A DNA stretch of 32,815 nucleotides from an uncultured Pirellulaceae bacterium (GTDB lineage: Bacteria > Planctomycetota > Planctomycetia > Pirellulales > Pirellulaceae): NCBI GenBank assembly GCA_937928215.1, contig CALFWL010000086.1, forward strand, positions 1 to 32,815. The letters are read 5' to 3'. Shown here piece after piece: positions 3 through 20,285 of the stretch. The number at the start of each line of letters is the position of its first letter. The stretch's first letter is position 1. The position numbers were made by a program, and so were the translations under genes. The notes under the pieces were generated by a model. It saw only the letters and a program-made list of their open reading frames with translations. It ran no database searches and had not been told where the DNA came from.

Positions 3-3000
3 CTTGCTGCGATTCGAAAAGCGGTTTCCGCGAAGCTACCGGACTACATGGTGCCCGATATCATGGTCGTTGTCGATGAATTTCCGCATACTCCCAGCGG
101 AAAACTGGATCGGAAAGCGTTTGCTCCACCGTCGACCGATCGACCTGAACTGGGAGTCGAATTCGTTGCGCCCAAAACAGATCACCAGAAACAAGTCGCA
201 GCAATTTGGGCCGATGTTTTGCAGATTGACTCCGTTGGCGTGCGAGATAATTTCTTTGAACTCGGTGGAAACTCAATCCGAGCCGTCAAGGTTGTCGCCT
301 TGGTCAAACAGCAATTACAGATTCAGGTCAGCGGTGCGGAGTTTTTTGACAATCCAACGATCGAGTCGTTCCTAGCACTCGCCGAAAAGAAGAACAGCCT
401 TCGCCAGAAGTTTCAGTCGGGCAGCAATCGTTCAGCGCGGGATGCAGGTGGCTCAGGACAGTACGCGATTGTCGGCATGGCGGCTCGAATGCCCGGCGCG
501 AAGGATCTTGAAACGTTTTGGGATAACCTGATCCATGAGCGCGAATCAATCACGTTCCTTACGAAGAATGAGCTCGACTCAACCCTTGACGCTCGCGATA
601 CGACGGACCCGAACTATGTTTCGGCTCGCGGGATCATCAAAGACGCGACGGAGTTTGACGCAAGGTTTTTTCGAACTCCGCCACGCAATGCCGAACTGAC
701 GTGCCCTCAACAGCGAATCATGCTGGAACTGGCGTGGACTGCACTTGAAGACGCGGGGGTCATTCCGAACAAGTCATCGGAAACGATCGGAATCTGGGCA
801 GGGACTTACTCGACCAGCTACTACATCAAGAATCTGTTGACCAATCCAGACATCGTACGCCAGACGGGTGAATTCCAGTTAGGAGCGATGAATGAGAAAG
901 ACTATATCGCCACGCGGGTTGCTCATGCGTTGAACTTTACGGGACCGGCAATCAACGTGAACACGGCTTGTTCGACTTCGCTGGTGGCTTTGATCGAAGC
1001 GTGCAAGTCACTCGACGCGAGGCACTGCGATGTCGCACTCGCCGGCGGAGCGTCCGTGACGTTCCCTCAGAATCAAGGACATCTGCATCAGACCGGCAGT
1101 ATCTTTACGCCCGACGGCCACTGCCGTCCGTTTGACGCAAACGGAGCGGGGACGTTGTTCAGCGACGGAGCCGGAGTCGTTGTGGTCAAACGATTGGAAG
1201 ACGCCGTCGCGAATCGCGATCGCATTTACGCAGTGGTCAAAGGGTTTGGCATCAACAACGACGGAGGCGACAAGGCCAGTTTCAGTGCGCCCAGCATTGA
1301 AGGGCAAGCCAATGCAATCGCGATGGCTCATGCGATGGGCGGCGTCAACGCGAAAGACATCGGTTACATCGAAGCGCATGGCACCGCGACTCCCATTGGC
1401 GACCCGATCGAAGTGGCAGCTTTGCAAACCGTCTTCGAAGCTCAAACCGACAGGAAACAATTTTGCTCGATTGGCAGTGTCAAATCGAACATCGGTCACA
1501 CGGTCGCGGCAGCGGGAGTGGCAGGTTTGATCAAAACAGCAATGGCGCTGCACAAGGAACAAATTCCTGCGACGCTTCATTACCAAACGCCCAATCCACA
1601 GATTGATTTTGAGAACAGTCCGTTCCAAGTTTGCGATTCCTTGACCACGTGGCAGCGATCAGAAACCGTTCGACTTGCGGGTGTCAGCTCATTTGGAGTC
1701 GGTGGAACGAACGCTCATGTCTTGTTGCAGGAAGCACCGCTCGAAAACGAATGTTGTGCAAACGGATGTGCCAAGGGGAGTGAAACTGACAACGAGCTAC
1801 CGTTCGCCTTGATCCCGGTTTCCGGCAAGACTCAAGAAGCTCTTGATCAGAACATCAGCAGTTTGGCTGACTCGCTTAAATCGCAGGCTGATTCGAGTTC
1901 TTGCGGCGCGCTGGCTGACATCGCATACTCACTTCAAAATCACCGAGATGAATTCATCCATCGCGCAGCGATTGTGACAAATTCGATTGGGGACGCGGCT
2001 GAGACGTTCCGGCAACGAAAAGCACCACGCTTTATGAAAAGAAAGTCATCCGCCTCGCCGCGAGATGTCGTGTTTATGTTTCCCGGCCAAGGATCGCAGT
2101 ATGTTCGGATGGGGCAAAACCTGTACGAACACTCGAGTGTGTTCCGCAAGAACCTAGATCATTGTGCAGAACTTTTGCTTCCCTTGCTTGGTCGTGATCT
2201 GCGAGACATCCTGTTCCCTGACGCAGGTGATGAAGATGCCTCGACGGAGATTCTGAAAAACACACAGTTCACACAGCCGGCTTTGTTCGCACTCGGATAC
2301 TCTTTGGCTCGGGTTTGGCAAGCGTGGGGCATCGCGCCTGTCGCATTGATGGGGCATTCGATTGGCGAATTTGCGGCAGCTTGTGTCGCTGGCGTTTTCA
2401 AGCTGGAGGACGGCTTGAAGATGATTGCCGAACGAGGTCGAGCGATGCAGGCGTTGCCGGGTGGAAGCATGATGAGCGTTCGTTTGCCTGGATCAAAAGT
2501 CGAGCCCATGCTGAATGGCGGCGTGGTGATCGGATCGTACAACGGTCCCGAGCTATGCGTTGTCGCCGGTCCAGACGATCAAGTTGCTCAGTTGCAAAAA
2601 CAATTGGAATCGAAAGAAGTCGTTTGTCGGCATCTGCACACGTCGCACGCTTTTCATTCGCCCATGATGGACGAGATCGTCGACCCGTTTGCTGAGTTTA
2701 TTGCACAGTTTGATCTGTCAAAGCCCACGATTCCGATTCTTTCAACGGTAACGGGCGACTGGCTGTCGGATGAACAAGCGACGGACGCTAGATATTGGGC
2801 GGAACATCTGAGGAAGCCAGTTCAATTCAGCGATGCCGTGACAAGGATGTGGAGCGAAGCTTCTTCGCGGATTCTGATCGAACTTGGTCCCCGTAAGACT
2901 TTGGCCACACTCGCAAAACAACATGCTACAGACCCAAAAAATCAGATCGCTTTGCCGACATTGGCGAGTTCTTCAGAAGACAATCTTGAATGGACCAACT

Positions 3001-5519
3001 TGCTAACGGCAGTTGCTCAGATCTGGTTGGCCGGTGTGTCGATCGACTGGACCTTGCTTTCGTCCAACGATCAGCCTCGACGAAAACGAAAGCACGTCAG
3101 TTTGCCAACGTACGCGTTCCAACGAAAAAAGTATTTCATTGAGCCGGGACAACCGATGTCGGTTTCGACACTCGATTCGCTCCCTGCGACCGTCTCCGAT
3201 TCCGTCAGTTCCTCTTTGACGAATTCAGTTCCTTCTGAGATCAAACACGAGACCATACCCATGAGTCGAATTCCAACCATCGTTGCTATGATTCACGAAG
3301 TCTTCGAAAACACTTCGGGATTTGATCTGTCCGAATTTGATGGCGATACCACATTTTTTGAAATGGGGCTCGACTCGTTGGTGCTGACTCAGACCGCGAC
3401 GGCGTTGAAGAAGGAGCTGGATCACGAGGTGACTTTCCGCCAGTTGCTAGAAGAAACGCCCTCCGTGGATTCGCTTGCTGAGTGGTTGGACGCTCAGTTG
3501 CCGGCTAACAAATACGCGGCCGAATCTGTGGAAGCGCCTGTGATGATTGAGCCGGACGAAGCTCGCCCGACAACTCCCGTCGCGCCCGCTCCGATTGCGG
3601 TGGCTGTGGAACAGGTGACCGCGAACGTGATGCCAGCCTCTGTCGCGGCCACGGCGTGTGGCACTTCCGGCGGCGCGTCGATCGCAAATCCTTCGGCCCC
3701 AACCGCTGCTGTTGGCGGCACAGCCATGCAGTCAATCGTGCAAACTCAGTTGCAGTTGATGCAGACTCAATTGCAGTTGCTGGCGGGGGCACACGTCGCG
3801 GCACCTGCCGTTCAAGCTCCATCGCCGACGACAGCTCAACAGGTCGCACCTGAAGTTGCACAAGATCCGTCACATCAAACAAGCGCCTGCCCTGCCCTTT
3901 CAGTCACGGTGAATGACGATGCGAAGCATCCCAAGCAGGAAAGTTCCGTCGAGGCGAAGTCTGAAAGCGGTGGCGATCAAGCAAAGCGTTTTTCCACGGT
4001 CAAAACCACCGATGGCAATCTGGACGCGAACCAACAAGCGGCTCTTGATGAAATCATACGCTTGAACAATGAACGCACTCCAAAGAGTAAAGCGTATGCT
4101 CAAGAGCATCGTCGCTACATGGCCGACCCGCGAACCGTTTCCGGGTTCCGTCCTAACATGAAAGAGATGACTCATCCGATCGTTATTGGAAAATCAAAAG
4201 GGGTTCAACTGTGGGACATCGACGGCAACGAGTACATTGATTTCACGTGCGGGTTTGGGTCCAACTTGCTGGGACACACTCATGACATTACGGTGAACGC
4301 GATTACCGAGCAGGTGAAAACGGACTACGCCATCGGACCGCAGTCACCACTTGCGGGCGAAGTGGCAAAGTTGTTTTGCGAGCTAACGGGGGCCGAACGA
4401 ATGGCGTTCTCCAACACCGGAAGTGAAGCCGTATTGGGATGCACCCGGTTGGCTCGAAACGCAACCGGTCGCGACTTGATCGTGATGTTCAACGGCGACT
4501 ATCATGGAATTCTTGACGAAGTGATTGCTCGTGGCAGTCAGAAGCTCCAAAGCTTTCCAGCAGCGACCGGCATTCCGAAAGATCACGTCGGCAACACGCT
4601 GATTCTGGATTACGGAACACGAGAGTCCCTGGACATCATTCGCAATCGAATGGATGAGATCGCCGCAGTGCTGGTCGAGCCAGTTCAAAGCCGGACGCCC
4701 GAGCTTCAACCGAAAGAATTTTTGCAAAAACTGCGACGCCTGACGGATGCCGAACCAACGTGTTTGATTTTCGATGAGGTTATCACGGGGCTGCGAATCG
4801 GGCTGGGCGGAGCACAAGAGTATTTTGGTGTCCAAGCGGACCTCGCGTCCTACGGCAAAATTGTCGGTGGCGGGATGCCGATCGGGATCGTGGCAGGGAA
4901 AGCCGAGTACATGGATGGACTGGATGGTGGATTCTGGCAGTACGGTGACGACAGTCGACCGGAAGCTGGCATGACTTACTTCGCTGGGACATTCGTTCGG
5001 CATCCGTTGGCATTGGCTGCATCCAAGGCGATCCTCCAGCACCTGAAAGCAGGCGGTCAACCGATGTACGACCGCTTGAATCAAGTCAGCCAATACCTTG
5101 CCGACGAACTCAACCGCGTGTTTGAAGAGCTGGAGGCTCCTCTGTTTTTGGCAAACTTCGGGTCGCTGTTCAAGATTCAGTTTCACCAAGAACTTGTGTA
5201 CAGCGAAGTGTTTTTCGCTGGCTTGCGGCGACGAGGAATGCACATCTGGGACCACCGCCCTTGCTTGTTGACATTGGCTCATGAAGAAGAGCACGTCGAT
5301 CAGCTTGTTCGTGCAATGCGAGAAACAATCATTGAATGCCAACGGCATGGATTCATGCCTGGGGAAGGCTACAAAAACACGCCAGCTAAATTTGATCCGA
5401 ATCAGGCTCCCGTGACCGGTGCCAAAGTCGGTAAAGACGAACGGGGGCGCCCGACTTGGTACGTGCCGGATGCCATGAACCCAGGTCAGTACCTTCCAGT
5501 GGGAACCAGTGCAAACTAG
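3..5519 (+). CDS. Hybrid NRPS/PKS with aminotransferase: (A)-PCP-KS-AT-ACP-AMT, 5' partial
   Basis: The reading frame is open to the window edge, so the start is missing; the ATG at 48 lies inside an adenylation domain. Domains in order: the A-domain tail with its A10 motif (TPSGKLDRKAF); a PCP (ELGGNSI, Ser codon 273); a ketosynthase from about 460, with Cys codon 969 in TACSTS and His codons 1377 and 1497; an acyltransferase with GQGSQ and GHSIGE (Ser codon 2358); a second carrier (MGLDSL, Ser codon 3375); an Ala/Pro-rich linker; and a class III PLP aminotransferase from about 4060 to 5460, with Asp codon 4773 in FDEVITG and Lys codon 4857 in SYGKIVGGG. The AT motif HAFH (2646-2657) is the malonyl type. 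No KR, DH or ER is present. The expected role is to extend the upstream acyl or aminoacyl group by malonate and transaminate the beta-keto group, as in the mycosubtilin and microcystin families. The upstream substrate cannot be read here. Confidence 0.95.
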   Translation, partial: LAAIRKAVSAKLPDYMVPDIMVVVDEFPHTPSGKLDRKAFAPPSTDRPELGVEFVAPKTDHQKQVAAIWADVLQIDSVGVRDNFFELGGNSIRAVKVVALVKQQLQIQVSGAEFFDNPTIESFLALAEKKNSLRQKFQSGSNRSARDAGGSGQYAIVGMAARMPGAKDLETFWDNLIHERESITFLTKNELDSTLDARDTTDPNYVSARGIIKDATEFDARFFRTPPRNAELTCPQQRIMLELAWTALEDAGVIPNKSSETIGIWAGTYSTSYYIKNLLTNPDIVRQTGEFQLGAMNEKDYIATRVAHALNFTGPAINVNTACSTSLVALIEACKSLDARHCDVALAGGASVTFPQNQGHLHQTGSIFTPDGHCRPFDANGAGTLFSDGAGVVVVKRLEDAVANRDRIYAVVKGFGINNDGGDKASFSAPSIEGQANAIAMAHAMGGVNAKDIGYIEAHGTATPIGDPIEVAALQTVFEAQTDRKQFCSIGSVKSNIGHTVAAAGVAGLIKTAMALHKEQIPATLHYQTPNPQIDFENSPFQVCDSLTTWQRSETVRLAGVSSFGVGGTNAHVLLQEAPLENECCANGCAKGSETDNELPFALIPVSGKTQEALDQNISSLADSLKSQADSSSCGALADIAYSLQNHRDEFIHRAAIVTNSIGDAAETFRQRKAPRFMKRKSSASPRDVVFMFPGQGSQYVRMGQNLYEHSSVFRKNLDHCAELLLPLLGRDLRDILFPDAGDEDASTEILKNTQFTQPALFALGYSLARVWQAWGIAPVALMGHSIGEFAAACVAGVFKLEDGLKMIAERGRAMQALPGGSMMSVRLPGSKVEPMLNGGVVIGSYNGPELCVVAGPDDQVAQLQKQLESKEVVCRHLHTSHAFHSPMMDEIVDPFAEFIAQFDLSKPTIPILSTVTGDWLSDEQATDARYWAEHLRKPVQFSDAVTRMWSEASSRILIELGPRKTLATLAKQHATDPKNQIALPTLASSSEDNLEWTNLLTAVAQIWLAGVSIDWTLLSSNDQPRRKRKHVSLPTYAFQRKKYFIEPGQPMSVSTLDSLPATVSDSVSSSLTNSVPSEIKHETIPMSRIPTIVAMIHEVFENTSGFDLSEFDGDTTFFEMGLDSLVLTQTATALKKELDHEVTFRQLLEETPSVDSLAEWLDAQLPANKYAAESVEAPVMIEPDEARPTTPVAPAPIAVAVEQVTANVMPASVAATACGTSGGASIANPSAPTAAVGGTAMQSIVQTQLQLMQTQLQLLAGAHVAAPAVQAPSPTTAQQVAPEVAQDPSHQTSACPALSVTVNDDAKHPKQESSVEAKSESGGDQAKRFSTVKTTDGNLDANQQAALDEIIRLNNERTPKSKAYAQEHRRYMADPRTVSGFRPNMKEMTHPIVIGKSKGVQLWDIDGNEYIDFTCGFGSNLLGHTHDITVNAITEQVKTDYAIGPQSPLAGEVAKLFCELTGAERMAFSNTGSEAVLGCTRLARNATGRDLIVMFNGDYHGILDEVIARGSQKLQSFPAATGIPKDHVGNTLILDYGTRESLDIIRNRMDEIAAVLVEPVQSRTPELQPKEFLQKLRRLTDAEPTCLIFDEVITGLRIGLGGAQEYFGVQADLASYGKIVGGGMPIGIVAGKAEYMDGLDGGFWQYGDDSRPEAGMTYFAGTFVRHPLALAASKAILQHLKAGGQPMYDRLNQVSQYLADELNRVFEELEAPLFLANFGSLFKIQFHQELVYSEVFFAGLRRRGMHIWDHRPCLLTLAHEEEHVDQLVRAMRETIIECQRHGFMPGEGYKNTPAKFDPNQAPVTGAKVGKDERGRPTWYVPDAMNPGQYLPVGTSAN
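3726..3788 (+). other. Gln/Leu repeat linker before the aminotransferase domain
   Basis: Within the Ala/Pro-rich linker between the second carrier and the aminotransferase, the protein has a short imperfect repeat of the form QTQLQLMQTQLQLL. Surrounding residues are mostly Ala, Pro, Val and Thr. The spacing of Leu and Gln suggests a short amphipathic helix or coiled coil, perhaps for dimerising the PLP domain. I recall similar segments ahead of aminotransferase domains in other hybrid synthases, but could not check. Confidence 0.6.
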
Positions 5520-5595
5520 CAACGTCATCCGCCCCACCTTTTAGTAACCTTCTAGTAACTCAATCAAGCCTGTCGCTTCTTTTTGCGTGACCATC
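5520..5595 (+). repeat. Short intergenic spacer with an 11-bp tandem repeat
   Basis: The spacer between the two megasynthase genes contains two adjacent copies of CTTYTAGTAAC at 5538-5548 and 5549-5559, each including a TAG. No terminator-like hairpin is seen, so the two genes are probably co-transcribed. Confidence 0.5.
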
Positions 5596-8500
5596 ATGAA
5601 TCAAGTCTCATCTTTAACCAACTCGACAAACGTTCCGGTCGTGATTGGTTCGAATCATGGCAATGACATTCGCTACCGGGCCACTGAGGCTCAACTGGAA
5701 GTCTGGCTATCCAGCCAGCAAAGCGTCGAGGCGAATTGCGCGTACAACGAGATCAGCTCGCTGGAGCTTCACGGGGCACTTGATACCGAGCGACTCAGAC
5801 GGGCGATTGATGAGGTCGTGAAACGGCATGAATTGCTTCGATCGACGTTTAGTGATGACGGATTACACGTCGTCGTCAAGGAAGAGGCCGACTACGAGTT
5901 TCAGTTTCAAGACTTCAGTGGTGACCTGCCCAACGGAATCGACGAAGCCTTGACGTCCGTCGTTCATCAAATGGCAACCACTCCGTTCAACTTGACGGCT
6001 GGGCCGCTCCTGCGGGTCGTGCTTCAGAAAATCTCAGACGATCATCACAAGCTGAGCTTTGTGGCCCATCATCTGATTCTCGACGGTTGGTCGCTGGCTG
6101 TTTTTTGTGCGGATTTGGGGCACTTCTACGATGTGCTCGGCGGAGTGGAGCGTGAAGAATTGCCTCCTGCCAATCGTTACCAACAATACGCGACGAAGAT
6201 GGAACAGTACCTTCCATCGGATGCAGGAAAATCAGACGAAGCGTTCTGGGTAAAGCAGTTCCGGGGCGGGCGGGTTCCATCAGATGGGCAAACGGATATC
6301 CCGGTGCTCGATCTACCAGTCGAGAATGCTCGTCCGGCTTTGCGAACCTACGAGGCCCGGCGCTACGACCACTCGATCGGTAGTGAACTGACTGAAAGAA
6401 TTCGCAAGGTTGGTGCAAAACACGGTTGCAGTTTGTTTAACACGATGCTGGCCGCATTCAGCGCTTACGTGGCCCGGATCAGTGAAACTTACGACTTTTG
6501 TGTTGGGATTCCGACCGCCGGACAGGCTGCGATGGACATGCCGGAACTGATCGGTCATTGCGTCAACACCATGCCGCTTCGAACGAAGGTCGACCCGTCC
6601 AGTTCGTTCACCGGGTACATGAAAACCTGTCGCAACGGCTTGTTGGATGCTTTTGACCATCAACGGTACTCTTATGGGACGCTGTTGCGAAAACTGTCGC
6701 CACCGCGCGATCCAGCGCGGCCGCCCATGATTTCCGTTTCGTTCAATTTGGACCCGATGATTGATGTTAGCAAGATGGGATTTTCCGGGCTGAAGGTCGA
6801 TCCGATCATCGAGCCCCGAAGCTTTGAAAATTTCGAATGGTTCGTCAACGGAGTCATTCTGGCGGACAAGTCGGTTGAGCTTCAACTGCAATACAATTGC
6901 AATCTGTACAGCAAGCAGTCCATCCGTTTTTACTTGGAAGGATTCGAAGCGTTTCTGTCCGAGTTGGCTGGCGCACCGCACACTCGTATCGCCGACGTTC
7001 ATCTGATGAGCATTGCCCAGCGACGGCAAGTGATGGTCGATTGGAACGCAACGGAACTGGAATACCCAATCGACGGGACCTTGCATGGTGAATTCTCTCG
7101 TCAAGCAGCGGCGACTCCTGACAGAACCGCCATCAAGTTCGATGACACCCTGCTGACGTACGCAGAAGTCGAAGCCAGTTCAAATAAGATCGCTCGTTAT
7201 TTGAAATCATCAGGCGTCGGGCCGGGGGATCTGGTTGGAATTTGCGTCGATCGTAGCGAGCGAACGTTGGTCTACCTGTACGGAGTACTGAAGTCCGGAG
7301 CAGGTTACGTGCCCTTGGATCCGGCTTATCCGACCGATCGCCTTCAATACATGTGTGATCACTCTGGGCTGAAACTGATCGTGACCGAGCAAGATTTGGT
7401 CGATCGGGTTTCAGATTTTAACAAACCGCACGTCGCGATCGACAACGTTGCCAATGAGATCGAGCGACTTGATTCCGGACCAGTTGACGTGACGGTTACT
7501 CCCGGAGACATCTGCTACGTGATCTACACGTCCGGCTCAACTGGCAAGCCGAAGGGAGTGCAAGTTCCTCATGGCCCCGTCGTGAACTTTCTTTGCTCAA
7601 TGCAACAGACGCCGGGATTCGACGAAAACGATTCGGTGTTAGCCGTAACAACGCTGTCATTCGACATTGCCGTGTTAGAACTTTATTTGCCTACCGTGTC
7701 AGGCGGAACCGTCGTCATGGTTGACCAAGCGACAGCGGTTGATGGCGTCAAGCTGGCTGAACAATTGGAAAAACATTCGATCACCGTCATGCAGGCGACG
7801 CCCGCAACTTGGCGTTTGATGATTCAGGCTGATTGGAACGGCAACACCGACTTGAAAGTCTTGTGTGGGGGCGAGCCGATGCCTCAAGATCTGGTCCAGC
7901 CGTTGTTGGATCGATGCAATCAATTGTGGAACATGTACGGCCCGACCGAAACCACCGTCTGGTCGGCAGCCTATCGAATCGAAAGTTCGACCGCTCCCGT
8001 TTTGATAGGAAAACCAATCGGAAACACTCAGATCTATCTGCTTGACGCAAACGGTCGAGAAGTGCCCGTCGGATGCGAGGGAGAGCTGTACATTGGCGGG
8101 GCAGGGGTGACATCCGGATATTTGCATCAGCGAGAGATGACCGACGAGCGTTTCGTTAAAAATCGCTACCGAAACCCATTCGCGGATTACGTCAGCGATC
8201 GTTTGTACAAGACCGGCGACGTGGCAAAGTATCGATTCGATGGAAACATCCAATTCCTTCGCCGTAACGACAAACAGGTGAAAGTCCGTGGCTTTCGAAT
8301 TGAGCTGGGCGAAATTGAACAGGCCATCAAGGCTCATCTTTCAGTTCAACAAACGGTTGTCATTGTGCGGGAAGACACCGTTGGAGATGCACGCTTGGTA
8401 GCCTACGTCGTGACCAAGCCTGATCAGTCGATTGATGGGAATCAGTTGCGTGATCACGTCCGCGAGTCACTCCCGTTCTATATGGTGCCTCAGCATTTTG

Positions 8501-8997
8501 TTGAACTTGAATCCATGCCGCAAACGAACAATGGCAAGATCGATTACAAGGCCTTGCCGATTCCTGTTATTGTGATGGAGACGAACGACGCCGTCTCAAA
8601 CGATATCGCGTTGCCTGGGACGGCCCCCGAAAAGTACCTTGCCGGTGTGTGGCAGGACGTGCTTGAGATCGACGACGTTGGACTGAATGACTTGTTCTTC
8701 GATATCGGCGGTCACTCGCTGCTGGTGATGAAAGTTATCTCTTCAGTGCATCAGCAAACGGGCATCAAGTTAGGGCCGCAAGACTTCTTGGTCGCCACCC
8801 TCGAACAGATGGCCAACAAAATTTCAGAGTCATACTTCTTCAACCGTGAGATTGAAGAAGCGGAACCTGAACCAGTGCCAGAAGCACGGGGCGAAATGAA
8901 CTCGAGTGAGCCAGATGCCGCAATTGAAACTGCCGATCGTCAAACTCGCGTCGAGCATCAGGGTGTGTTCAAGAAGCTCACCGGGTTTTGGACCTAA
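5596..8997 (+). CDS. Non-ribosomal peptide synthetase, C-A-PCP, predicted glycine-activating
   Basis: About 1133 residues. The ATG at 5596 is preferred over an in-frame GTG at 5587. The condensation domain covers roughly residues 20-460, with the HHxxxDG motif intact (HHLILDG, His158-Gly164). The adenylation domain (about 490-990) has YTSGSTGKPKG near 645, NMYGPTETT, YKTGD and NGKIDYK with Lys981. Residues lining the pocket, aligned by eye to GrsA, read D-I-L-Q-L-G-M-V-W-K, which matches the known glycine signature. The PCP has GGHSLL with Ser1041. The protein ends in an acidic Glu/Pro tail of about 55 residues finishing in FKKLTGFWT; no thioesterase, reductase or epimerase is present. It follows the aminotransferase protein by 76 bp, so its C domain should join the beta-aminoacyl chain to glycine. 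The tail could be a docking segment. Confidence 0.95.
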   Translation: MNQVSSLTNSTNVPVVIGSNHGNDIRYRATEAQLEVWLSSQQSVEANCAYNEISSLELHGALDTERLRRAIDEVVKRHELLRSTFSDDGLHVVVKEEADYEFQFQDFSGDLPNGIDEALTSVVHQMATTPFNLTAGPLLRVVLQKISDDHHKLSFVAHHLILDGWSLAVFCADLGHFYDVLGGVEREELPPANRYQQYATKMEQYLPSDAGKSDEAFWVKQFRGGRVPSDGQTDIPVLDLPVENARPALRTYEARRYDHSIGSELTERIRKVGAKHGCSLFNTMLAAFSAYVARISETYDFCVGIPTAGQAAMDMPELIGHCVNTMPLRTKVDPSSSFTGYMKTCRNGLLDAFDHQRYSYGTLLRKLSPPRDPARPPMISVSFNLDPMIDVSKMGFSGLKVDPIIEPRSFENFEWFVNGVILADKSVELQLQYNCNLYSKQSIRFYLEGFEAFLSELAGAPHTRIADVHLMSIAQRRQVMVDWNATELEYPIDGTLHGEFSRQAAATPDRTAIKFDDTLLTYAEVEASSNKIARYLKSSGVGPGDLVGICVDRSERTLVYLYGVLKSGAGYVPLDPAYPTDRLQYMCDHSGLKLIVTEQDLVDRVSDFNKPHVAIDNVANEIERLDSGPVDVTVTPGDICYVIYTSGSTGKPKGVQVPHGPVVNFLCSMQQTPGFDENDSVLAVTTLSFDIAVLELYLPTVSGGTVVMVDQATAVDGVKLAEQLEKHSITVMQATPATWRLMIQADWNGNTDLKVLCGGEPMPQDLVQPLLDRCNQLWNMYGPTETTVWSAAYRIESSTAPVLIGKPIGNTQIYLLDANGREVPVGCEGELYIGGAGVTSGYLHQREMTDERFVKNRYRNPFADYVSDRLYKTGDVAKYRFDGNIQFLRRNDKQVKVRGFRIELGEIEQAIKAHLSVQQTVVIVREDTVGDARLVAYVVTKPDQSIDGNQLRDHVRESLPFYMVPQHFVELESMPQTNNGKIDYKALPIPVIVMETNDAVSNDIALPGTAPEKYLAGVWQDVLEIDDVGLNDLFFDIGGHSLLVMKVISSVHQQTGIKLGPQDFLVATLEQMANKISESYFFNREIEEAEPEPVPEARGEMNSSEPDAAIETADRQTRVEHQGVFKKLTGFWT

Positions 8998-9129
8998 GGA
9001 GTATGCGACAAATAAGTGTCACCTTTCGCGCCACGAAAGTTGCATGAAACAAACGTTGCTTTCACGGAGCGAAAAACGACTTCAAGGAAGACGACGGTAA
9101 CAAACCACTTGGAACTAAACTGCAATTTG

Positions 9130-9969
9130 ATGCAACAATACTTTGGACATCCCGAATCGCCGCTATTCAGCGTTTACCATGCGCCGCGAGGTAAGCATGG
9201 TGGCGATGGACGAGCCGTGTTGATCTGCCCTCCGATCGGACAAGAGTACATACGGACTCATTGGTGTTTGCGACTGGTCGCCAATCAGATCGCTCGCGGT
9301 GGCGCCCATGTGCTGCGACTGGACTATCACGGGATAGGAGATTCTTCCGGGCGCGTTGAGCACGTGGATTCGGTCCGCGTCTGGCAGAACAATATTCGTG
9401 AAGCGATCGAACATCTGAAGAAAATCAGTGGTGCTGAAACGGTGATGTTGTTAGGGCAGCGATTCGGTGGAACGCTCGCAGGTGAGGTTGCCCAGAAACG
9501 ACCGGATGTCAACAGCGTCGTGTTGTGGGAACCGGTTCTTGATGGCCTGAGCTACTTGAAACAACTTCGCGCGATGCATGCGGAAATGCTGGACCTGTGG
9601 GTTTGCAAAATGACGACTCAGAATGACGATGTATCGGAAGAAATTCTTGGTTCCCTGTACTCACGCGTATTACTGAACGAAGTAGAAGGTCTTCAGCTGA
9701 ACGTAGGCGATATTCCTCAACCGCAACTGATTGTAAGCTGCGGATGCACAGATTCTGCCTTGAGCCATCCCGAGCCTTCGTTGCAAAAGGTTGTTTTAGA
9801 TGACCGTGAGTCCTCGTGGGACGACCTGCGTGAATTGGAATCGGCTTGGCTGCGTCCTCAAGTTTCGCGAAAGATCGTGAAACTGGTTCGAGAAATGTTC
9901 GATCGACTCGAGCGGTTTGATGCGTTAAAGACTGAGTCGCGGTCAGCCAAAGTGGGAGCCGGACAATGA
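9130..9969 (+). CDS. Alpha/beta-hydrolase-fold protein lacking the nucleophilic Ser (exosortase-type hydrolase 2-like)
   Basis: About 279 residues. The frame is open from a GTG at 9016, but the Arg/Thr-rich extension looks non-coding; ATG 9130 begins a more usual N-terminus. The fold is suggested by ICPPIGQEY, RLDYHGIGDSSG and the elbow segment LLGQRFGGTLA. The elbow has Arg111 where GxSxG enzymes have Ser, so ordinary serine hydrolysis is doubtful. From memory, the 'exosortase A system-associated hydrolase 2' proteins have a similar GLRLGA elbow, and they occur paired with a hydrolase 1. Here too a second hydrolase follows, overlapping by 4 bp (ATGA). The gene starts 132 bp after the NRPS in the same direction and may act on the carrier-bound product. 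A non-catalytic partner role is equally possible. Confidence 0.85.
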   Translation: MQQYFGHPESPLFSVYHAPRGKHGGDGRAVLICPPIGQEYIRTHWCLRLVANQIARGGAHVLRLDYHGIGDSSGRVEHVDSVRVWQNNIREAIEHLKKISGAETVMLLGQRFGGTLAGEVAQKRPDVNSVVLWEPVLDGLSYLKQLRAMHAEMLDLWVCKMTTQNDDVSEEILGSLYSRVLLNEVEGLQLNVGDIPQPQLIVSCGCTDSALSHPEPSLQKVVLDDRESSWDDLRELESAWLRPQVSRKIVKLVREMFDRLERFDALKTESRSAKVGAGQ

Positions 9970-10820
9970 AACAACAGGTTTGCAACTTTGGAAACGAAGG
10001 TCATTTGCTCGGCATCCTGACCACTCCAGACGACGATGTCCGTGTCCCCGACGCGCCGATCGCGCTGATTCTTAACGCTGGGATCGTGCATCGAGTCGGC
10101 CCGTTCCGTTTGAATGTTGATATCGCTCGGCATCTGGCTGAGCTTGGATATTCGACCCTGCGACTGGATCTTTCGGGGTTGGGTGACAGTGGACCGCGGA
10201 CAGGAAAGCTGGAACTTGAAAATCGAGCCGAACTGGATGCCGCAGATGCGATGACGTTTCTGCAACAAGAAACTGGCGTCGGCAGGTTCGTGATCGTCGG
10301 ACTGTGCAGCGGCGCTTACAATGCTCATTGTGTGGCGGTGAAAGATCAGCGAGTGATCGGTGCGGTGTTCATGGACGGGATCGTTTTTCGCACCGTTGGC
10401 TACTTCTTGCGTCACCACGTGGGCAGGGTTTTTCGTCCTCGTTTCTGGCGAAACGCATTCAAGCGAAGATTCAATCGCCCCGCTCGTGCGGGCAGCGAGG
10501 CTGGCGGAAACGCTCTTGCGGAAAGCGAATTCTTTGGCGACGGTCTTTCGAAGGATCAGGTAATCAATGACTTGACCGGTTTGATGGATCGAGGCGTACA
10601 GATGTTGTTTCTGTACACTGATGGCTACGATGACATCTGTGGGCGGTCTCAGTTTCGTGAAATGTACGGCCTGAGGCCCGATAATGGTCAGTTGCAGGTG
10701 GAGTACTTTCCCAAATCGGAGCACACGTTCCGATTGACCGAAAATCGTCGCGCTGCCTGCGAGCGGGTGTCCAGTTGGTTTCAGAGTCGATTTGAGGCAA
10801 CCGAACCGGTTGCAAGCTGA
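9966..10820 (+). CDS. Alpha/beta hydrolase, candidate stand-alone thioesterase (exosortase-type hydrolase 1-like)
   Basis: 284 residues, starting at an ATG that overlaps the stop of the previous gene, which indicates translational coupling. It has the fold's RLDLSGLGDSG strand-loop and an elbow GLCSGA with Ser115 as nucleophile. Plausible partners are Asp219 (YTDGYDD) and His253 (SEHTF), giving a complete Ser-Asp-His triad. The GLC-x-GA elbow resembles what I remember of 'exosortase A system-associated hydrolase 1'. A Lys/Arg-rich segment near residues 145-175 (RPRFWRNAFKRRF) may be a lid or contact surface. Since neither megasynthase protein ends in a thioesterase, this enzyme is the best candidate in the window for releasing or editing the product. 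That role is inference from position; the fold and triad are visible. Confidence 0.88.
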   Translation: MKQQVCNFGNEGHLLGILTTPDDDVRVPDAPIALILNAGIVHRVGPFRLNVDIARHLAELGYSTLRLDLSGLGDSGPRTGKLELENRAELDAADAMTFLQQETGVGRFVIVGLCSGAYNAHCVAVKDQRVIGAVFMDGIVFRTVGYFLRHHVGRVFRPRFWRNAFKRRFNRPARAGSEAGGNALAESEFFGDGLSKDQVINDLTGLMDRGVQMLFLYTDGYDDICGRSQFREMYGLRPDNGQLQVEYFPKSEHTFRLTENRRAACERVSSWFQSRFEATEPVAS

Positions 10821-13942: not shown

Positions 13943-16222
13943 CTAGCGACGGACACCACGTTTTGGGCGATCGCGGTCCTTCGGTTTCTTTGCTTCTCCG
14001 ACTTCGGCAGAATCATCGTGAATGAACAGTGAGTGCCGGTACTCTTTTTGATCGTCAAAGTCATTGTGAAGCACGAACTCACCTTCCGAATTCAGGACAA
14101 GCGTTTCGCCCGGTAGCGAATAATCCATCAGTTCTTTCCGTCGCCCCGTATCAACCGCCTCGCCACCCATCACGTCTACCAAAACCATGTTGGTATGAAT
14201 TTTCTGTCGATCGGCTTTGTGAACGGCCCAAGTCAGTGGATTTAACAAGTGAGCATCGGCAGTGTAGTTCAACAGTTCGCCCCGACGAACCAACTGCTTG
14301 GTCGGCACGAGCGTTTTGTAAATCTTTGACCAGACGGCGACTGCCATATCGACAGCGGGCTCACCATCTGGAACTTCAAAGTCTCCGACGCGATCAGTTT
14401 TGGATGGCACGACATCTCCGGCGGCAACTTGAGACCGGGACGCATCCGAAACGGTTACCGTGACCGGTTCGCTCCATTCGGTTGGACGAGCAAAGCGAAG
14501 CTCATCCAGATCAAACAAAGCGTCCAGGTCCACCTTTTCTCTGCGAGGGACTGCGATTTCCTCGAAACGCTCATCGCCCTCACCGTCGCCATAGGCTTCG
14601 CTGACGTAGAAAATAGATCGATCTGAGTCTTTTGGGTCTTCGTCTTCACGGGCACGAGACAGTCGGGCTCGCGCGTCAGCGCTGACCATCTTGCGAGTGA
14701 TTGGAATCTTCTTGTAAACCTTTTCTTGTTTCTCATCGGTTTTGACACCACGAGTTCGCGGGCGTGTTGAACCGGTGTCCATATCCATATCTAGGTCCAT
14801 GTCCATCATGTCCATGTCCATCATATCCATATCTATTGCACCGCCGCGATTACTTCGTTTTTTGGAGTCGCTTGGTTCATTGTTGGGATCCGCCAACCAA
14901 AGCCGAACACGATACTGATAAGTTTTGCCGGGAGCGGTTTGCAAGTCGAAAAATCGGACCAGTTTGTGGTCTGCGGTCGGTTCCAATTCCGCCATGACTT
15001 CCTCATACGGCTTTTTGTCAGAACCACGACGTTGGGCCATCGAACGAACGCGATCGCGTGAGCCCGATCGGCGATTCCCGAGCGATCGTCGGGAGACACC
15101 TGGCCCAACGCGACGAGCAACTTGATCTTCGTTGTCTGCCGTTGCAAAAAGACCTTCTTCATTGACAGCGGGATCGCGATTTCCGCCGGACTCATCCTCG
15201 TCCACATCATCAAAACCTGAGAATTCCCGCTCCTTGACTTTCGGGTGCAAAGAAAACGGTTTGTAGTCGACCATCGTCAGTGGTGGGATGACTCCCGACA
15301 GCATTTCGTCGTAGTTGTCTGGGGCCACAACCTCGGGAGCCGCAGCGGGATAGAGTCGCGACTGTCCTTCATGGATCCTTTGCGAAACATCTTTCCATTC
15401 GCCCGGTTTGCCGTCGACGACCTCCGCACGCTCAACCTGTACGTACTGATAAACGGGATGGTCGCGTTCGGGATAGTAGCCGGCTCCGAATGCAAAGCTG
15501 TTTTGGTAATCAGCATATTGCTTTTTGACATCGACAACGCCAGCCACGGCGACTCCGTTCAGAAGAAAAACGCGATCATTCCGGCTGAGCCTAGAACTGC
15601 CGGGGCGCAAGCCCAACGTTTCGTGATGTTGAACCAACGGCACGTTCTCGCCCGGGATTCTGACTTCTTCGATTTCTTTCTTGTCGCGAGGACGTCGCGG
15701 TGGCCTACGAGTTGAAGGAGGGCGGCGCCGGTCGCGTGAGTCGTCATCCTCCACCTCTTCGACGTTTGCCTCGACGGCGAGCGGCAGGTCGTCCATCACG
15801 TCTTTCATATTTCCAGATGTGGCAAGATAGATCGGCGCCGTGAAAGGCTTTGCAATCAAATCCGTGACCGGTAACAGTTTGGGGTCGTTCCGCGGTGCGA
15901 GTGATTTAACGGCAACGCTGGCGATTCGGATCTCCAGTTCAGATGGATCGATCCCTTCATCGTTCAGGATGACGGGCAAAGATTCGACCGCCAATCGAGA
16001 ATCCTTGATCTGAGTCCATGCATCTTCTGCGACAATGTGCTCGCCTGCCTGCTCCGCCATGGTTAACAATTGTCGCGGAGTGGTTTCGTCAAAAACTTCG
16101 GTTTTGTACCCCGACCAGAAGAACCAACCCATCAGACTTACAGCTAAGAAGATGATCAGTTTTTCAGTGTGGTGTAGAAAAAAACTCTGGATCGATTGTT
16201 TGTTGATTTTCGGGAGTTTCAT
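13943..16222 (-). CDS. Single-pass membrane protein with Met-Asp repeat, third gene of PilM-like operon
   Basis: 759 residues from ATG 16222 (MKLPKINKQS). An in-frame ATG at 16324 directly abuts the TAA of the upstream gene and is the alternative start. A short cytoplasmic N-terminus is followed by one membrane helix (LIIFLAVSLMGWFFWSGY, about residues 24-41), and the rest should be outside the cytoplasmic membrane. An Arg/Pro-rich stretch lies near 175, a segment like a beta-sandwich strand (GKTYQYRVRLWL) near 430, a Met-Asp repeat at 464-482, and a basic C-terminus (KKPKDRDRPKRGVRR). I recognise no catalytic domain. Being third behind a PilM-PilN-like gene, it could be a diverged PilO/PilP-like alignment protein. 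That role is inference. Confidence 0.85.
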   Translation of the reverse strand: MKLPKINKQSIQSFFLHHTEKLIIFLAVSLMGWFFWSGYKTEVFDETTPRQLLTMAEQAGEHIVAEDAWTQIKDSRLAVESLPVILNDEGIDPSELEIRIASVAVKSLAPRNDPKLLPVTDLIAKPFTAPIYLATSGNMKDVMDDLPLAVEANVEEVEDDDSRDRRRPPSTRRPPRRPRDKKEIEEVRIPGENVPLVQHHETLGLRPGSSRLSRNDRVFLLNGVAVAGVVDVKKQYADYQNSFAFGAGYYPERDHPVYQYVQVERAEVVDGKPGEWKDVSQRIHEGQSRLYPAAAPEVVAPDNYDEMLSGVIPPLTMVDYKPFSLHPKVKEREFSGFDDVDEDESGGNRDPAVNEEGLFATADNEDQVARRVGPGVSRRSLGNRRSGSRDRVRSMAQRRGSDKKPYEEVMAELEPTADHKLVRFFDLQTAPGKTYQYRVRLWLADPNNEPSDSKKRSNRGGAIDMDMMDMDMMDMDLDMDMDTGSTRPRTRGVKTDEKQEKVYKKIPITRKMVSADARARLSRAREDEDPKDSDRSIFYVSEAYGDGEGDERFEEIAVPRREKVDLDALFDLDELRFARPTEWSEPVTVTVSDASRSQVAAGDVVPSKTDRVGDFEVPDGEPAVDMAVAVWSKIYKTLVPTKQLVRRGELLNYTADAHLLNPLTWAVHKADRQKIHTNMVLVDVMGGEAVDTGRRKELMDYSLPGETLVLNSEGEFVLHNDFDDQKEYRHSLFIHDDSAEVGEAKKPKDRDRPKRGVRR
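14777..14833 (-). repeat. Met-Asp codon repeat in the 759-residue protein
   Basis: Nineteen residues made only of Asp and Met with one Leu (residues 464-482), encoded by near-repeats of GAYATG. It is flanked by Arg/Gly-rich sequence. Confidence 0.95.
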
Positions 16223-16324
16223 GATCGTTCCGTTTCGGTAAAACCGTTGCCCCGGATGGTAGTAATTATCTTCTGGACCATTCACGTCGTGGTTGCACGA
16301 ACGACCGTCCAGCGTGTCGTTCAT

Positions 16325-17911
16325 TTACTCTTTAATCGCCAGCAGATCCCGCCGTTGCGACAAGCTGGCGGTTTCGTCGAGATTAACCGCTGGCTCTTCA
16401 AGACCTGCGGCCTTGCGGAGGAATTTCTCGCGGACCGGATTGTAAATTTTGACGATCCCGTAAAACTCGACGCTGACATCGTAGTTGGTGCGGACTTCGA
16501 CGGGGGTCGACTTCAATTCGATTTCTTGAACCGAGCTACCCCCTCCGCTTAGGCCCATGTCCATATCCATCATATCCATATCCATATCCATCATGTCCAT
16601 GCCCAGTCCCCCTCCACCACCACCACCAAGTCCGGCCTGCCGTTTGGCTCCGCCGTTCAATTCAATGCCTTGGCCCGCGATGTGCCGATTGATGCGGACC
16701 TGATGAATCTCGAATGCGAAAGGTGAATTGGCACAGGCGGCAATGAAGTCCGCTATCTTTCTCTCGTCCATCACCAATGCAATTCGCACGGGGACTCGTT
16801 TTGAAACAATCAGTTCGATATTGCTGTCGGGAAGTGTGGAGCCTGTGATGACTCCTTTGACCACATCAGCCGAGTAAGGCTTGAAGTCCTGATCCACATA
16901 ACGGCCATGAAATGGGCTGGTGCTGGCTGCCTGATCAAAATCGCTTGCTGGAGCAGTGGTTGGTGCGGCGGGTGCCGGTGCTGCGCCATCTTCTCCGCCC
17001 AATCGAGTATCGACGGGGATCAGCTCGCCCAACTGAGTTCTCGCCTCACGCCCGAAAGCGACGTGATCTATTTGTTTAATGGTTGCCAGATCGTTGGCGT
17101 CAACGTCGCCGTTGATTTGTCGAATGATGCCGAACATCGCCTCCAGCAGCCACAGATCCTGTTGCAGCATGTAAACCTGCAGCGGGGTAGGGTCGGGTGT
17201 CGGCAGGTTATGATCATCGTAGTTTTGAAACTCGGTCAATTTCTGGTACCAGAGATCTTGGTTCGCCTGTTCCCAGACGACTGCGACTCCAGCCAACTCT
17301 TCGTCAGTCAACTGTCGGCTGGAGCGACGACGGTCACTCAGCGGATTAAATCGACCATCGCGAGAAGTCAGTCGCATCTCTTCCAGCTTTTCTTCGCTGA
17401 ACGCCCAATTGGTGCGAACCATTTCGCTGATCTTGTCCATCTGTCTTTTGATGTTCGACCGATAGAGAGTCAGGTACTGCTCCATCCCGAGCCCTTTGAA
17501 GTTGTCAGGGAACGTCTCGGGCGGGTCGAACCGACCAAAAACTCGTACAAACTCGGTGCTGCCAATGACATCGGTTGGCCACTTCAGAATGGATGCCTGG
17601 GCTTTGTGGCGGACCTCCCACGCTTTCACAATGTCGTCCACCTGCTGAGACATTTCCTGTTTCATTCCGGACTCAGTGGTTTGGTTCGGATGAGCCACAA
17701 CCGTTTCATCAACGTCCGTTGCCGTCACCGTCCGGATTGCTTTCGCGGCGGAAATCTGACTCTTGACCGCACTGGCAAAGCTAGAAGTCTCTTTTGAGAC
17801 CGTACCCGAGGCCACGAACCACGCACCGAGCATCCCTAACGCCAAAAAAGCACTTGCCAGCCAGAAGCTGTTCTTTTTCAGCCAAGCGATTGCGGGAGCT
17901 AATTTTTCCAT
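16325..17911 (-). CDS. Single-pass membrane protein with Met-Asp repeat, possible PilO-like, second gene of operon
   Basis: 528 residues from ATG 17911 (MEKLAPAIAW). The frame is open to 17992, but that extension is not typical of an N-terminus. One membrane helix (SFWLASAFLALGMLGAWFVA, about 16-35) is followed by a helical region rich in Ser and Ala, then mixed sequence. A segment near residues 370-395 (VPVRIALVMDERKIADFIA) resembles the strand-helix pattern of PilO's ferredoxin-like domain; this is a visual impression only. A Gly run and a Met-Asp repeat at 438-452 follow, and then a conserved-looking end with VRTNYDVSVEFYGIVKIY. The gene lies between the PilM-like gene (130 bp gap) and the third membrane protein. 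Its topology fits an inner-membrane platform component. Confidence 0.87.
   Translation of the reverse strand: MEKLAPAIAWLKKNSFWLASAFLALGMLGAWFVASGTVSKETSSFASAVKSQISAAKAIRTVTATDVDETVVAHPNQTTESGMKQEMSQQVDDIVKAWEVRHKAQASILKWPTDVIGSTEFVRVFGRFDPPETFPDNFKGLGMEQYLTLYRSNIKRQMDKISEMVRTNWAFSEEKLEEMRLTSRDGRFNPLSDRRRSSRQLTDEELAGVAVVWEQANQDLWYQKLTEFQNYDDHNLPTPDPTPLQVYMLQQDLWLLEAMFGIIRQINGDVDANDLATIKQIDHVAFGREARTQLGELIPVDTRLGGEDGAAPAPAAPTTAPASDFDQAASTSPFHGRYVDQDFKPYSADVVKGVITGSTLPDSNIELIVSKRVPVRIALVMDERKIADFIAACANSPFAFEIHQVRINRHIAGQGIELNGGAKRQAGLGGGGGGGLGMDMMDMDMDMMDMDMGLSGGGSSVQEIELKSTPVEVRTNYDVSVEFYGIVKIYNPVREKFLRKAAGLEEPAVNLDETASLSQRRDLLAIKE
16556..16600 (-). repeat. Met-Asp codon repeat in the 528-residue protein
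   Basis: Fifteen residues of only Met and Asp (438-452), directly after a run of about seven Gly. The codons are near-repeats of GAYATG, as in the neighbouring gene. Confidence 0.95.
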
Positions 17912-18041
17912 TTGAGTGTTCCGATCTCGGTTGATGATCGTGACCGGTCGTGTGCCGATCTGTTCAATTGATTGTTTGCAACAAGTTGTCACGATTCAAC
18001 GAGTGCTCAGCGAGCGACATGCAAAATCTGACAACACTTTT

Positions 18042-20285
18042 CTATTCCGCGTCCGTCTCTTGTGTTTCGGCATCGATAGCAGCCTGAGCCGCTTCGGCTT
18101 CGGCCTTGCGACGTTCCTCGCGAGCGAGCAGGCGATCCTCGGGCGATCGAGGTACCCAAGCCATCTGCACCACAAAATTGTATTCCTTGACTTTGAAACT
18201 CGCCTCCGCCGTCACATCTTTCTCCTCTTCGGGATCTGTCTTTTTGGATGCAACGATTGGCTGTCGGTTGCCGGTCGTGCGACGCGTCTTCGTGTCAATC
18301 GCTGAAGCCGTCGGGTCATAAACGACCATCTTGCTGGTCAATGGCGAAGTTCGGGTGATCGTGGGGTACAAAATGCCGAGGTCCGAATACTTGAACATTC
18401 GGTCCGGATCATCGTTGGCGGGCAATTTCACATCTGCTTTGGTCAGCAAGTTGTTAATCAAAGTGGATACCACGAACCGCTTTCCGAAATTGAGTTCGGC
18501 CATGCTCTTGCGACTGTTGTGAAAATGGTGTCCGCGAATCTCGATCACCCAACCGGGCGTATCCGACAAGCCACCTTCCGCTTCCGAGTCCTCGGAATCG
18601 ACATCCAGCTCGACATCGTCCGTCGTGACGCCCGCCTCTTGGGCCGCCACCAGAACTTCTTCTGAAACAGCAAACTGTTTGTCGAACACGGGCTTGATCG
18701 TGCTAACCCAAGTCGAAAGATCTTCGTGGAAGACGGACTCAATGTGGTCAATGTAAATTTCTTTTCGGTCTTCAAACTTGTATTCCCGTGGGTCGACCGT
18801 TTGAATGCCGGCTTCAAGCGATTCCTTGATGGTTGGGTCTTCTGGAAATGCTTGGTAAAGGGCCGAGTAGACTTCGATCCAACCGCCTTTGTCTTCTGAC
18901 GCGGAAACCAATTCTTGAGAAATCAGGTCCAGTTTGTCCTGCGTTGCTTTCAGTTCAGAGTCCGTCGTTACGAATTGATCGCTTTTGGATTTCTGCGACT
19001 TGACTTGGCTCATCGACTCCTTCCACTTACGACCTTCCAGCTCAAACTCCGGATTGACCTTCCACCACGCAACGGTTTGGAAGAAAAACGACAAAACCAA
19101 GCCGAGCGTCAACATGGCAACCGACGCCAGCACCCAAGGTTTTTTCGCACGGACAATCCGCTCGACTTCGATTTCGCGTGGCAGCAGGTTGGTGTTGATT
19201 GTCCCTTGCTTCAGTCCTTGCAGGCACAGTCCGTAACACGTTGCAAACGACAGGACGTTGGAACTGAATGACGGCTGAGCCACCACATCACTGCCCTTGA
19301 GCTTTGAGTACTCCGAAATTTTCGCAACGTCCATTTCCAATTGCTTGTTCAGATATTGCCGCAAACCAGGGAGTTTGGCAGCATTGCCGAGCATCACAAT
19401 TTCTGAGATCGAAGCGGTTTTCTCGTTTCGCAGGAAGAACTGAAGGGACCGCTGGACTTCGTTGACCAAGTCATTGAAAACGGGCCGCATCGCTTTGAAA
19501 ACTTCCTTCGGATTCTCTGACTGCCGAGCGTTGCGTTTCAGTTGCTCCGCTTTGGTTTGAGTCAGCTTCAGCTCACGCGAAAGATGGCGAGTGAAATGAT
19601 TTCCCCCAATCGGAATGTTACGCATCCACAGGCGCAAACCGTTGGTCACGATCAGGTCCGTCGTGTCCGTTCCGATCGACATGACCACAGTGGACTCGGG
19701 TGGGTTTTCCGGATCGATGTCTTCCGGATCCGGCAACTGGTCAAGCACGTCATGACACACCACGTTGAAGATCGAAAGTGGAGAAAGTTGAACAATGTCG
19801 ACGCCAATTTCCGCGTGATCAAATGGCTTGAGAGCGCGGAAGACAGCGTCGCGTTTCATCGCGAACAAGCCAACCTCGGCGTCCTGAGTCCGCCCCTCGA
19901 CGACGGCTCCCCCGAGTTGCTGCCAGTCCCAAATCACGTCCTCGATCGGGAACGGAATCTGTTGCTTCACTTCGTACTTGACGATCTCCGGCAGCTTGGA
20001 CGGTTCGACCGGAGGCGGCTTGAAGAAACGCGAAAGCCCTGCCTGGCCAGAAACGCTGATCGCGACCTTGTCGCCCGCAACGTTGTTCCTTGACAAGAAC
20101 TCGACCAATGCTTCTTGGATTAACTCCTCCGGATCGGCTTCCGGCTGACCGAGAATTTTCGGATATTCGATGTAATCGTATTTGTCAGCGATGATCGTCT
20201 GACCATCAGAGTCCAAAGTGCAGCGGAGAGCTTTGAGCGCACATTGTCCAAGATCGATTCCCCAAACGGCGTTTGATTTGGCCAT
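18042..20285 (-). CDS. pilM: PilM-like actin-fold protein fused to a PilN-like membrane segment
   Basis: 747 residues from ATG 20285 (MAKSNAVWGIDLGQ). The first 350 or so residues match PilM: WGIDLGQCALKALR at the start, KYEVKQQIPFP, MSIGTDTTDLIV, GGNHFTRHLS and MLGNAAKLPGL. PilM is an FtsA-like cytoplasmic ATP-binding protein that binds the tail of PilN. Here the chain continues with INTNLLPRE (residues 363-371), which looks like PilN's conserved INLLP tail. A membrane helix follows (about 379-404, WVLASVAMLTLGLVLSFFF), then a charged coiled-coil-like region and a large outer domain. Normal PilM is about 350 residues and has no membrane helix. The two genes behind it would be further platform components of a type IV pilus or type II secretion-like machine. 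The Glu/Ala-rich C-terminus is probably flexible. Confidence 0.9.
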   Translation of the reverse strand: MAKSNAVWGIDLGQCALKALRCTLDSDGQTIIADKYDYIEYPKILGQPEADPEELIQEALVEFLSRNNVAGDKVAISVSGQAGLSRFFKPPPVEPSKLPEIVKYEVKQQIPFPIEDVIWDWQQLGGAVVEGRTQDAEVGLFAMKRDAVFRALKPFDHAEIGVDIVQLSPLSIFNVVCHDVLDQLPDPEDIDPENPPESTVVMSIGTDTTDLIVTNGLRLWMRNIPIGGNHFTRHLSRELKLTQTKAEQLKRNARQSENPKEVFKAMRPVFNDLVNEVQRSLQFFLRNEKTASISEIVMLGNAAKLPGLRQYLNKQLEMDVAKISEYSKLKGSDVVAQPSFSSNVLSFATCYGLCLQGLKQGTINTNLLPREIEVERIVRAKKPWVLASVAMLTLGLVLSFFFQTVAWWKVNPEFELEGRKWKESMSQVKSQKSKSDQFVTTDSELKATQDKLDLISQELVSASEDKGGWIEVYSALYQAFPEDPTIKESLEAGIQTVDPREYKFEDRKEIYIDHIESVFHEDLSTWVSTIKPVFDKQFAVSEEVLVAAQEAGVTTDDVELDVDSEDSEAEGGLSDTPGWVIEIRGHHFHNSRKSMAELNFGKRFVVSTLINNLLTKADVKLPANDDPDRMFKYSDLGILYPTITRTSPLTSKMVVYDPTASAIDTKTRRTTGNRQPIVASKKTDPEEEKDVTAEASFKVKEYNFVVQMAWVPRSPEDRLLAREERRKAEAEAAQAAIDAETQETDAE

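Follow-up and report, generated by a model that had tools for sequence, protein, structure and literature searches.

An operon of an uncultured Pirellulaceae bacterium apparently encodes a complete two-module hybrid PKS/NRPS line, as judged from its sequence and those of its relatives. We think it probable, with some reserve, that the A1, KS-AT, AMT, C and A2 domains of this complete operon make a diamino acyl-glycine, and that the hydrolase H1, acting with its partner H2, releases the product in trans. Such a small operon would make a diamino-acyl glycine scaffold whose first residue differs by species. The hydrolase pair would provide a testable candidate for product release from a line that lacks a thioesterase (TE), which suggests a job for a little-studied pair of proteins. 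To our knowledge, few natural products have been characterized from this phylum.

Domain organization of the line

The window, that is, the whole stretch of DNA analyzed, is the entire contig C86 (positions 1–32815) of a 4.15 Mb genome that is in 247 contigs and 92% complete. The full layout is A-PCP-KS-AT-ACP-AMT in gene 1 followed by C-A-PCP in gene 2, with a 4′-phosphopantetheinyl transferase (PPTase) upstream and H2 and H1 downstream. The parts that lie in the window are as follows.

3..137, + strand: C-terminal tail of the first A domain, the remainder of which is on contig C117 (locus L048, 17659–19234)
192..377, + strand: PCP1 (PF00550, residues 64–125; Ser91 conserved)
465..1583, + strand: ketosynthase (PF00109, 9e-63; PF02801, 1.7e-41; Cys323, His459 and His499)
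2070..3011, + strand: acyltransferase (PF00698, 8.1e-56; GHSIGE and HAFH invariant in the aligned relatives)
3321..3512, + strand: ACP (second of two PF00550 stretches, of which the first alone was located; PF23297 at residues 1107–1170 below its cut-off; Ser1125 conserved)
4023..5372, + strand: AMT, a PLP aminotransferase domain (PF00202, 1.5e-49, at residues 1390–1772; Lys1619)
5587..8997, + strand: gene 2, C-A-PCP (C 5674–7029, A 7093–8538, PCP 8635–8817; Pfam)
9016..9969, + strand: H2, an alpha/beta hydrolase relative without a catalytic nucleophile (GQRFG; PF12146)
9966..10820, + strand: H1, an alpha/beta hydrolase with a GLCSG elbow (Cys114, His253; PF00561)

Domains were called with Pfam at E ≤ 0.001. 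Gene 1 matched PP-binding (two stretches), KS, AT and Aminotran_3, and gene 2 matched C, A, AMP-binding_C and PP-binding; at this threshold neither gene matched a KR, DH, ER, TE or reductase family. The Aminotran_3 domain sits after KS-AT-ACP and before C, as in AMT lines. The C domain motif is HHLILDG, and gene 2 stops about 96 residues past the PCP serine motif, with no TE. The KS Cys-His-His residues, the AT and ACP/PCP serines, and the AMT lysine are all in place in this line, as they are in each of the aligned relatives that span the position concerned. We take GHSIGE and HAFH to be malonyl-type motifs and Lys1619, which is aligned in all 11 rows covering its position, to be the PLP-binding lysine. 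Pfam and the active-site residues together confirm the initial annotation of this DNA, which had proposed KS-AT(HAFH)-ACP-aminotransferase followed by C-A-PCP, without reductive domains, TE or reductase. To that description we add that gene 1 is truncated by the contig end, that a PCP precedes the KS and that the first A domain is on C117. The interval so annotated also contains the two alpha/beta hydrolases, which had gone unnamed.

Gene 1 is open at the left edge of the window, where the contig ends inside the A domain. The right end of C117 and the left end of the window share an exact overlap of 141 bases, which would fit a break in the assembly graph. Upstream of the A domain, C117 carries the PPTase and a sulfate-permease-family gene (Pfam), and the same gene order occurs in another genome (G020). 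Given the overlap and this matching synteny, we read C117 as the missing 5′ part of gene 1; the contigs were kept separate, and the first A domain was read from C117. The upstream extension that had been suggested as a check thus recovered the first A domain, with no further module before it on C117 or in the relatives read.

Downstream of H1 lie a ROK kinase and LepA. Elsewhere in the window, two large ORFs of 793 and 555 aa (13943–17992, − strand) have no Pfam or NCBIfam match and adjoin a PilM-like gene (18042–20483). A 939 aa ORF (20876–23695, + strand) upstream of a cytidylate kinase likewise has no Pfam match.

Conservation of the operon

The gene 1 protein (P0001) was searched in 99 genomes. 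Close matches were found in 11 of the 28 genomes of the genus (its own included) and in two other members of the family, G038 and G054; the relatives are labeled uncultured Pirellulaceae, one Mariniblastus sp. and one Planctomycetaceae. These matches are 56–78% identical (the window itself excluded), some being broken by contig ends; among the relatives in which the gene layout was compared, gene 1 is 55–75% identical. These ORFs are about 2300 aa long and begin with an A domain, which is contained in the ORFs of ten relatives (1641–2366 aa).

The recurrent gene order is PPTase, gene 1, gene 2, H2, H1, with the last operon genes of G012 and G020 read on a further contig or locus. Of the 12 genomes with a visible flank, 11 have a PPTase relative immediately before gene 1, and the PPTases on C117, in G020 and in G488 were confirmed by Pfam. 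G038 is the exception, having no adjacent PPTase, and its AMT is a separate ORF. The layout also departs from the common order in G009 and G013, where the H2/H1 pair is on another contig, away from gene 2; the line contig of G013 is only 4187 bases long. Beyond the PPTase and, in the case of G020, the sulfate permease, the queries matched nothing further upstream of the relatives' A domain. Among other genes, only one protein kinase ORF (L044, Pfam) is common to the flanks of at least three genomes; the remaining recurrent flank ORFs lie inside or antisense to known genes, as judged by position rather than ORF by ORF. On a LepA tree of 24 genomes, the presence of the line needs five changes, at least four of them forced, against a mean of 8.3 when shuffled.

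A different AMT-type line occurs in the same family (L050 in G055 and L051 in G033), with its KS-AT and ACP-AMT parts on two adjacent ORFs. No H1 or H2 match was found in the 19.9 kb read at these loci.

Adenylation specificity and predicted product

Nine pocket residues of both A domains were read by alignment to core motifs; position numbers follow GrsA, and the tenth letter, Lys517, was assumed rather than read. The pocket of the second A domain (A2) is DILQLGMVW in all 11 sequences, and the same nine residues were read by eye at two Aquisalinus loci. Identity over the pocket is 1.00 against a background of 0.69, a value reached by 0.0002 of random nine-column sets. DILQLGMIWK is given as the code of four glycine domains in PMC12283262, and DILQLGVI is predicted for glycine in NcmD in a passage of PMC5466765.

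The first A domain (A1) keeps Asp235 in 12 of 12 sequences and should, on that ground, load an alpha-amino acid. Its pocket has ten different codes, so that the amino acid probably varies by species. We claim lack of constraint at this pocket, not diversifying selection. The proposal of a faster-evolving pocket was rejected: mean identity is 0.60 against a background of 0.67, and values this low occur in 26% of random column sets.

From these assignments, A1 would load the species-variable alpha-amino acid, KS-AT would add malonate, and the AMT would replace the beta-ketone by an amine. The resulting beta,gamma-diamino acyl thioester would then be condensed with glycine by C-A2-PCP. Since A1 would load an alpha-amino acid directly, as opposed to lipid loading, the acid is predicted to be a beta,gamma-diamino acid and the product a beta,gamma-diamino acyl-glycine, with the unit R-CH(NH2)-CH(NH2)-CH2-CO-Gly. 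The AMT layout and the A2 pocket DILQLGMVW thus lend support to the earlier proposal of a beta-amino unit joined to glycine.

The H2/H1 hydrolase pair

The start of H2 is likely near position 9130, as judged from the alignment. Its elbow lacks Ser or Cys in all nine sequences (Arg in eight, Gly in G014). In H1, GLCSG and an EH motif are present in eight of eight sequences, and Cys114 and His253 are invariant in 24 rows; the three positions that could supply the Asp of the triad are less constant, each being conserved in just 10 of these rows. The H1 model (pLDDT 80) is an alpha/beta hydrolase whose nearest solved folds are lipases and feruloyl esterases, with DcsB and the curacin TE also ranking among the fold matches. 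Neither hydrolase matches PF00975 (Pfam). The best NCBIfam matches fall below the curated cut-offs, at 66.0 bits against 168.45 for H1 (TIGR03100) and 84.5 bits against 202.75 for H2 (TIGR03101).

Among 30 genomes, which include G038 and G054 because they carry the line, H1 and H2 each occur in 12 of the 13 line-bearing genomes and in none of the 17 others (Fisher p = 1.5e-7, for genomes that are not independent). The sole line-bearing genome lacking the pair is G006, the line of which is cut by a contig end, and genome incompleteness may account for part of the absences (G011, for instance, is 77% complete and G015 84%). G009 and G013 retain the pair although it is away from gene 2. There, an MMPL-family gene is directly upstream of H2-H1 (L060, 6422–8860, in G009; L059, 6584–8884, in G013); it may be a product transporter or a coincidence. 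In a phylum sample of 392 genomes, 11 AMT lines and 14 H1 relatives coincide only in the window's own genome; with one coincidence in 392 genomes, the H2/H1 pair is not general to AMT lines.

Relatives of the pair outside the planctomycetes

Distant H1 relatives were found by scanning contigs with two H1 motifs, one containing GLCSGA. This gave 59 loci: 12 planctomycete, 2 Aquisalinus, 1 Neomegalonema and 44 others. In the two Aquisalinus genomes, the order is KS-AT, ACP-AMT-C-A-PCP, H2, H1, and a separate PF00975 thioesterase lies beside the line on the opposite strand. Ahead of this line comes a 700–708 residue protein in which Pfam matches nothing but a carrier domain close to the end, which makes a different starter probable. 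At the Neomegalonema locus, H2 and H1 are in separate ORFs.

At 43 of the 44 distant non-planctomycete loci, a single ORF holds both partners, one part matching H2 and the next H1. These fused H2-H1 proteins (L068–L112 except L091) come from records labeled as Proteobacteria, Actinobacteria and Myxococcota. An alignment of 43 of them has Arg at the H2 elbow throughout, whereas the nucleophile of H1 is Cys in 41 sequences and Ser in the other 2; constancy of the Cys is partly by construction because GLCSGA was in the scan motif, which does not apply to the Arg. The model of one fused homolog, L079, is confident (pLDDT 91, pTM 0.92) and would suit a tightly packed H2/H1 pair. L079 and L070 match both TIGR03100 and TIGR03101, below the curated cut-offs.

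No KS, AT, AMT, C or PCP match was found in the flanks read at any of the 44 distant loci. Within these flanks, six loci have an acyl or amino acid ligase-like (adenylate-forming) match, that of L079 being confirmed by Pfam as an AMP-binding ligase, and one has a PPTase match. The neighbors scanned at L070 and L079 are of polysaccharide type, with a glycosyl-hydrolase-2-like gene at both and an acyltransferase, a sugar isomerase and a glycosyltransferase at L070; L086 neighbors a formyltransferase-like gene. A regular expression, probably too strict a pattern, found no small carrier protein near the fused hydrolases at any locus. We suggest, tentatively and with considerable doubt, that H2/H1 is a recurring two-part enzyme that off-loads carrier proteins, composed of a Cys hydrolase and an obligate pseudo-hydrolase with Arg at the nucleophile position, and that the acyl or peptidyl chain on the carrier is handed over to water, to an amine of the chain itself or to an acceptor at the cell surface. 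Under the same doubt, it would be encoded by two genes beside the planctomycete and alphaproteobacterial lines and fused elsewhere, at least sometimes among polysaccharide genes.

Release of the product

The initial annotation had proposed release by a separate enzyme. The absence of a built-in release domain does imply release by something separate, and the pair at the end of the same operon offers the candidates. None of the proteins P0001–P0005 matches PF00975, the canonical TE family. H1, as a Cys hydrolase complexed with the pseudo-hydrolase H2, would detach the chain from the final PCP in trans, either hydrolyzing or cyclizing it.

A possible though clearly less probable reading is that H2 and H1 are editing (type II) or tailoring enzymes and that release occurs otherwise. 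Such roles would suit the resemblance of H1 to esterases, the PF00975 thioesterase kept beside the pair in both Aquisalinus genomes, and the position of the pair in G013 and G009, away from gene 2 and directly downstream of the MMPL-family gene. However, no other release candidate is common to the operons read, PF00975 hits in the genome of the window are limited to two that are weak and partial (26.4 and 22.9 bits; cut-off 26.4), and the pair is retained with the line.

Non-enzymatic release, or self-release from C-A-PCP, is improbable. The free amine of the diamino acid would attack the glycyl thioester to form a ring; the beta and gamma amines of the predicted chain should be within reach of the thioester, and there is no TE domain, but this does not account for the association of H2/H1 with the line. 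Tetramic-acid-type release as in nocamycin, in which C-A(Gly)-PCP is off-loaded via a beta-keto group, seems very unlikely: although NcmD is a C-A-PCP protein with a pocket predicted for glycine (the same passage of PMC5466765), the AMT lysine is in place here and the AMT should consume the beta-ketone, and none of the scanned neighbors is named a cyclase among the family names given by Pfam and NCBIfam. That the window is part of a longer line, with additional modules before it, is scarcely credible, even though it starts at a contig end inside an A domain, given the start of that domain on C117 behind the PPTase and sulfate-permease-family genes, the relatives' ORFs of 1641–2366 aa with no further upstream module match, and a single other Condensation match in the genome that is partial (36.6 bits, on C129).

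Comparison with known systems

The best solved relative of the AMT is that of mycosubtilin MycA (PDB 6kfm; phmmer E = 1.8e-132 over residues 7–450 of 454), which is likewise a PLP aminotransferase in cis at a PKS/NRPS border. The MycA line is lipid-loaded, and lines of the iturin/mycosubtilin type have a fatty acid loaded by an acyl ligase. Here, in contrast, the line opens with an A domain that has Asp235, and a PCP comes next. The interpretation placed on this DNA at the outset stands for the predicted beta-amino unit, the glycine and the lack of built-in release; it is corrected in that this line, unlike that of mycosubtilin, is predicted to load an alpha-amino acid directly. The MycA AMT uses Gln as donor, according to PMC3870968.

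The domain order of gene 1 is of a known orphan kind rather than new, given what is listed in PMC3870968. Its Table 2 (2013) includes an orphan line of Pedobacter heparinus, C6XWU5, as A-CP-KS-AT-CP-PLP1 with the predicted product Nrp-Mal-Gly-Pk, which is the same order as gene 1 when compared by the table row alone; a related layout with predicted glycine is given for Salinisphaera. PMC4982196 describes an mcyE-like PKS amplicon from a Rhodopirellula strain. Our literature search found no description of a conserved operon that combines a first residue varying by species with an invariant glycine and an H2/H1 pair, and nothing for DILQLGMVWK or for a diamino or vicinal diamine product with an AMT, which is not proof of absence.

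Nocamycin NcmD is also a stand-alone C-A-PCP with a glycine-predicted pocket; it belongs to the tetramic acid family, and the passage of PMC5466765 concerned mentions no AMT. The best NCBIfam matches of H1 and H2, all below curated cut-offs, are exosortase-A-associated hydrolases 1 and 2, respectively; unlike those hydrolases, H2 and H1 here adjoin an assembly line. The SulM TE and ObiF, as described in PMC11298585, are alpha/beta hydrolases that release an NRPS chain with Cys where Ser would be usual. Those are TE domains in cis, whereas H1 is encoded on its own and has a pseudo-hydrolase as partner.
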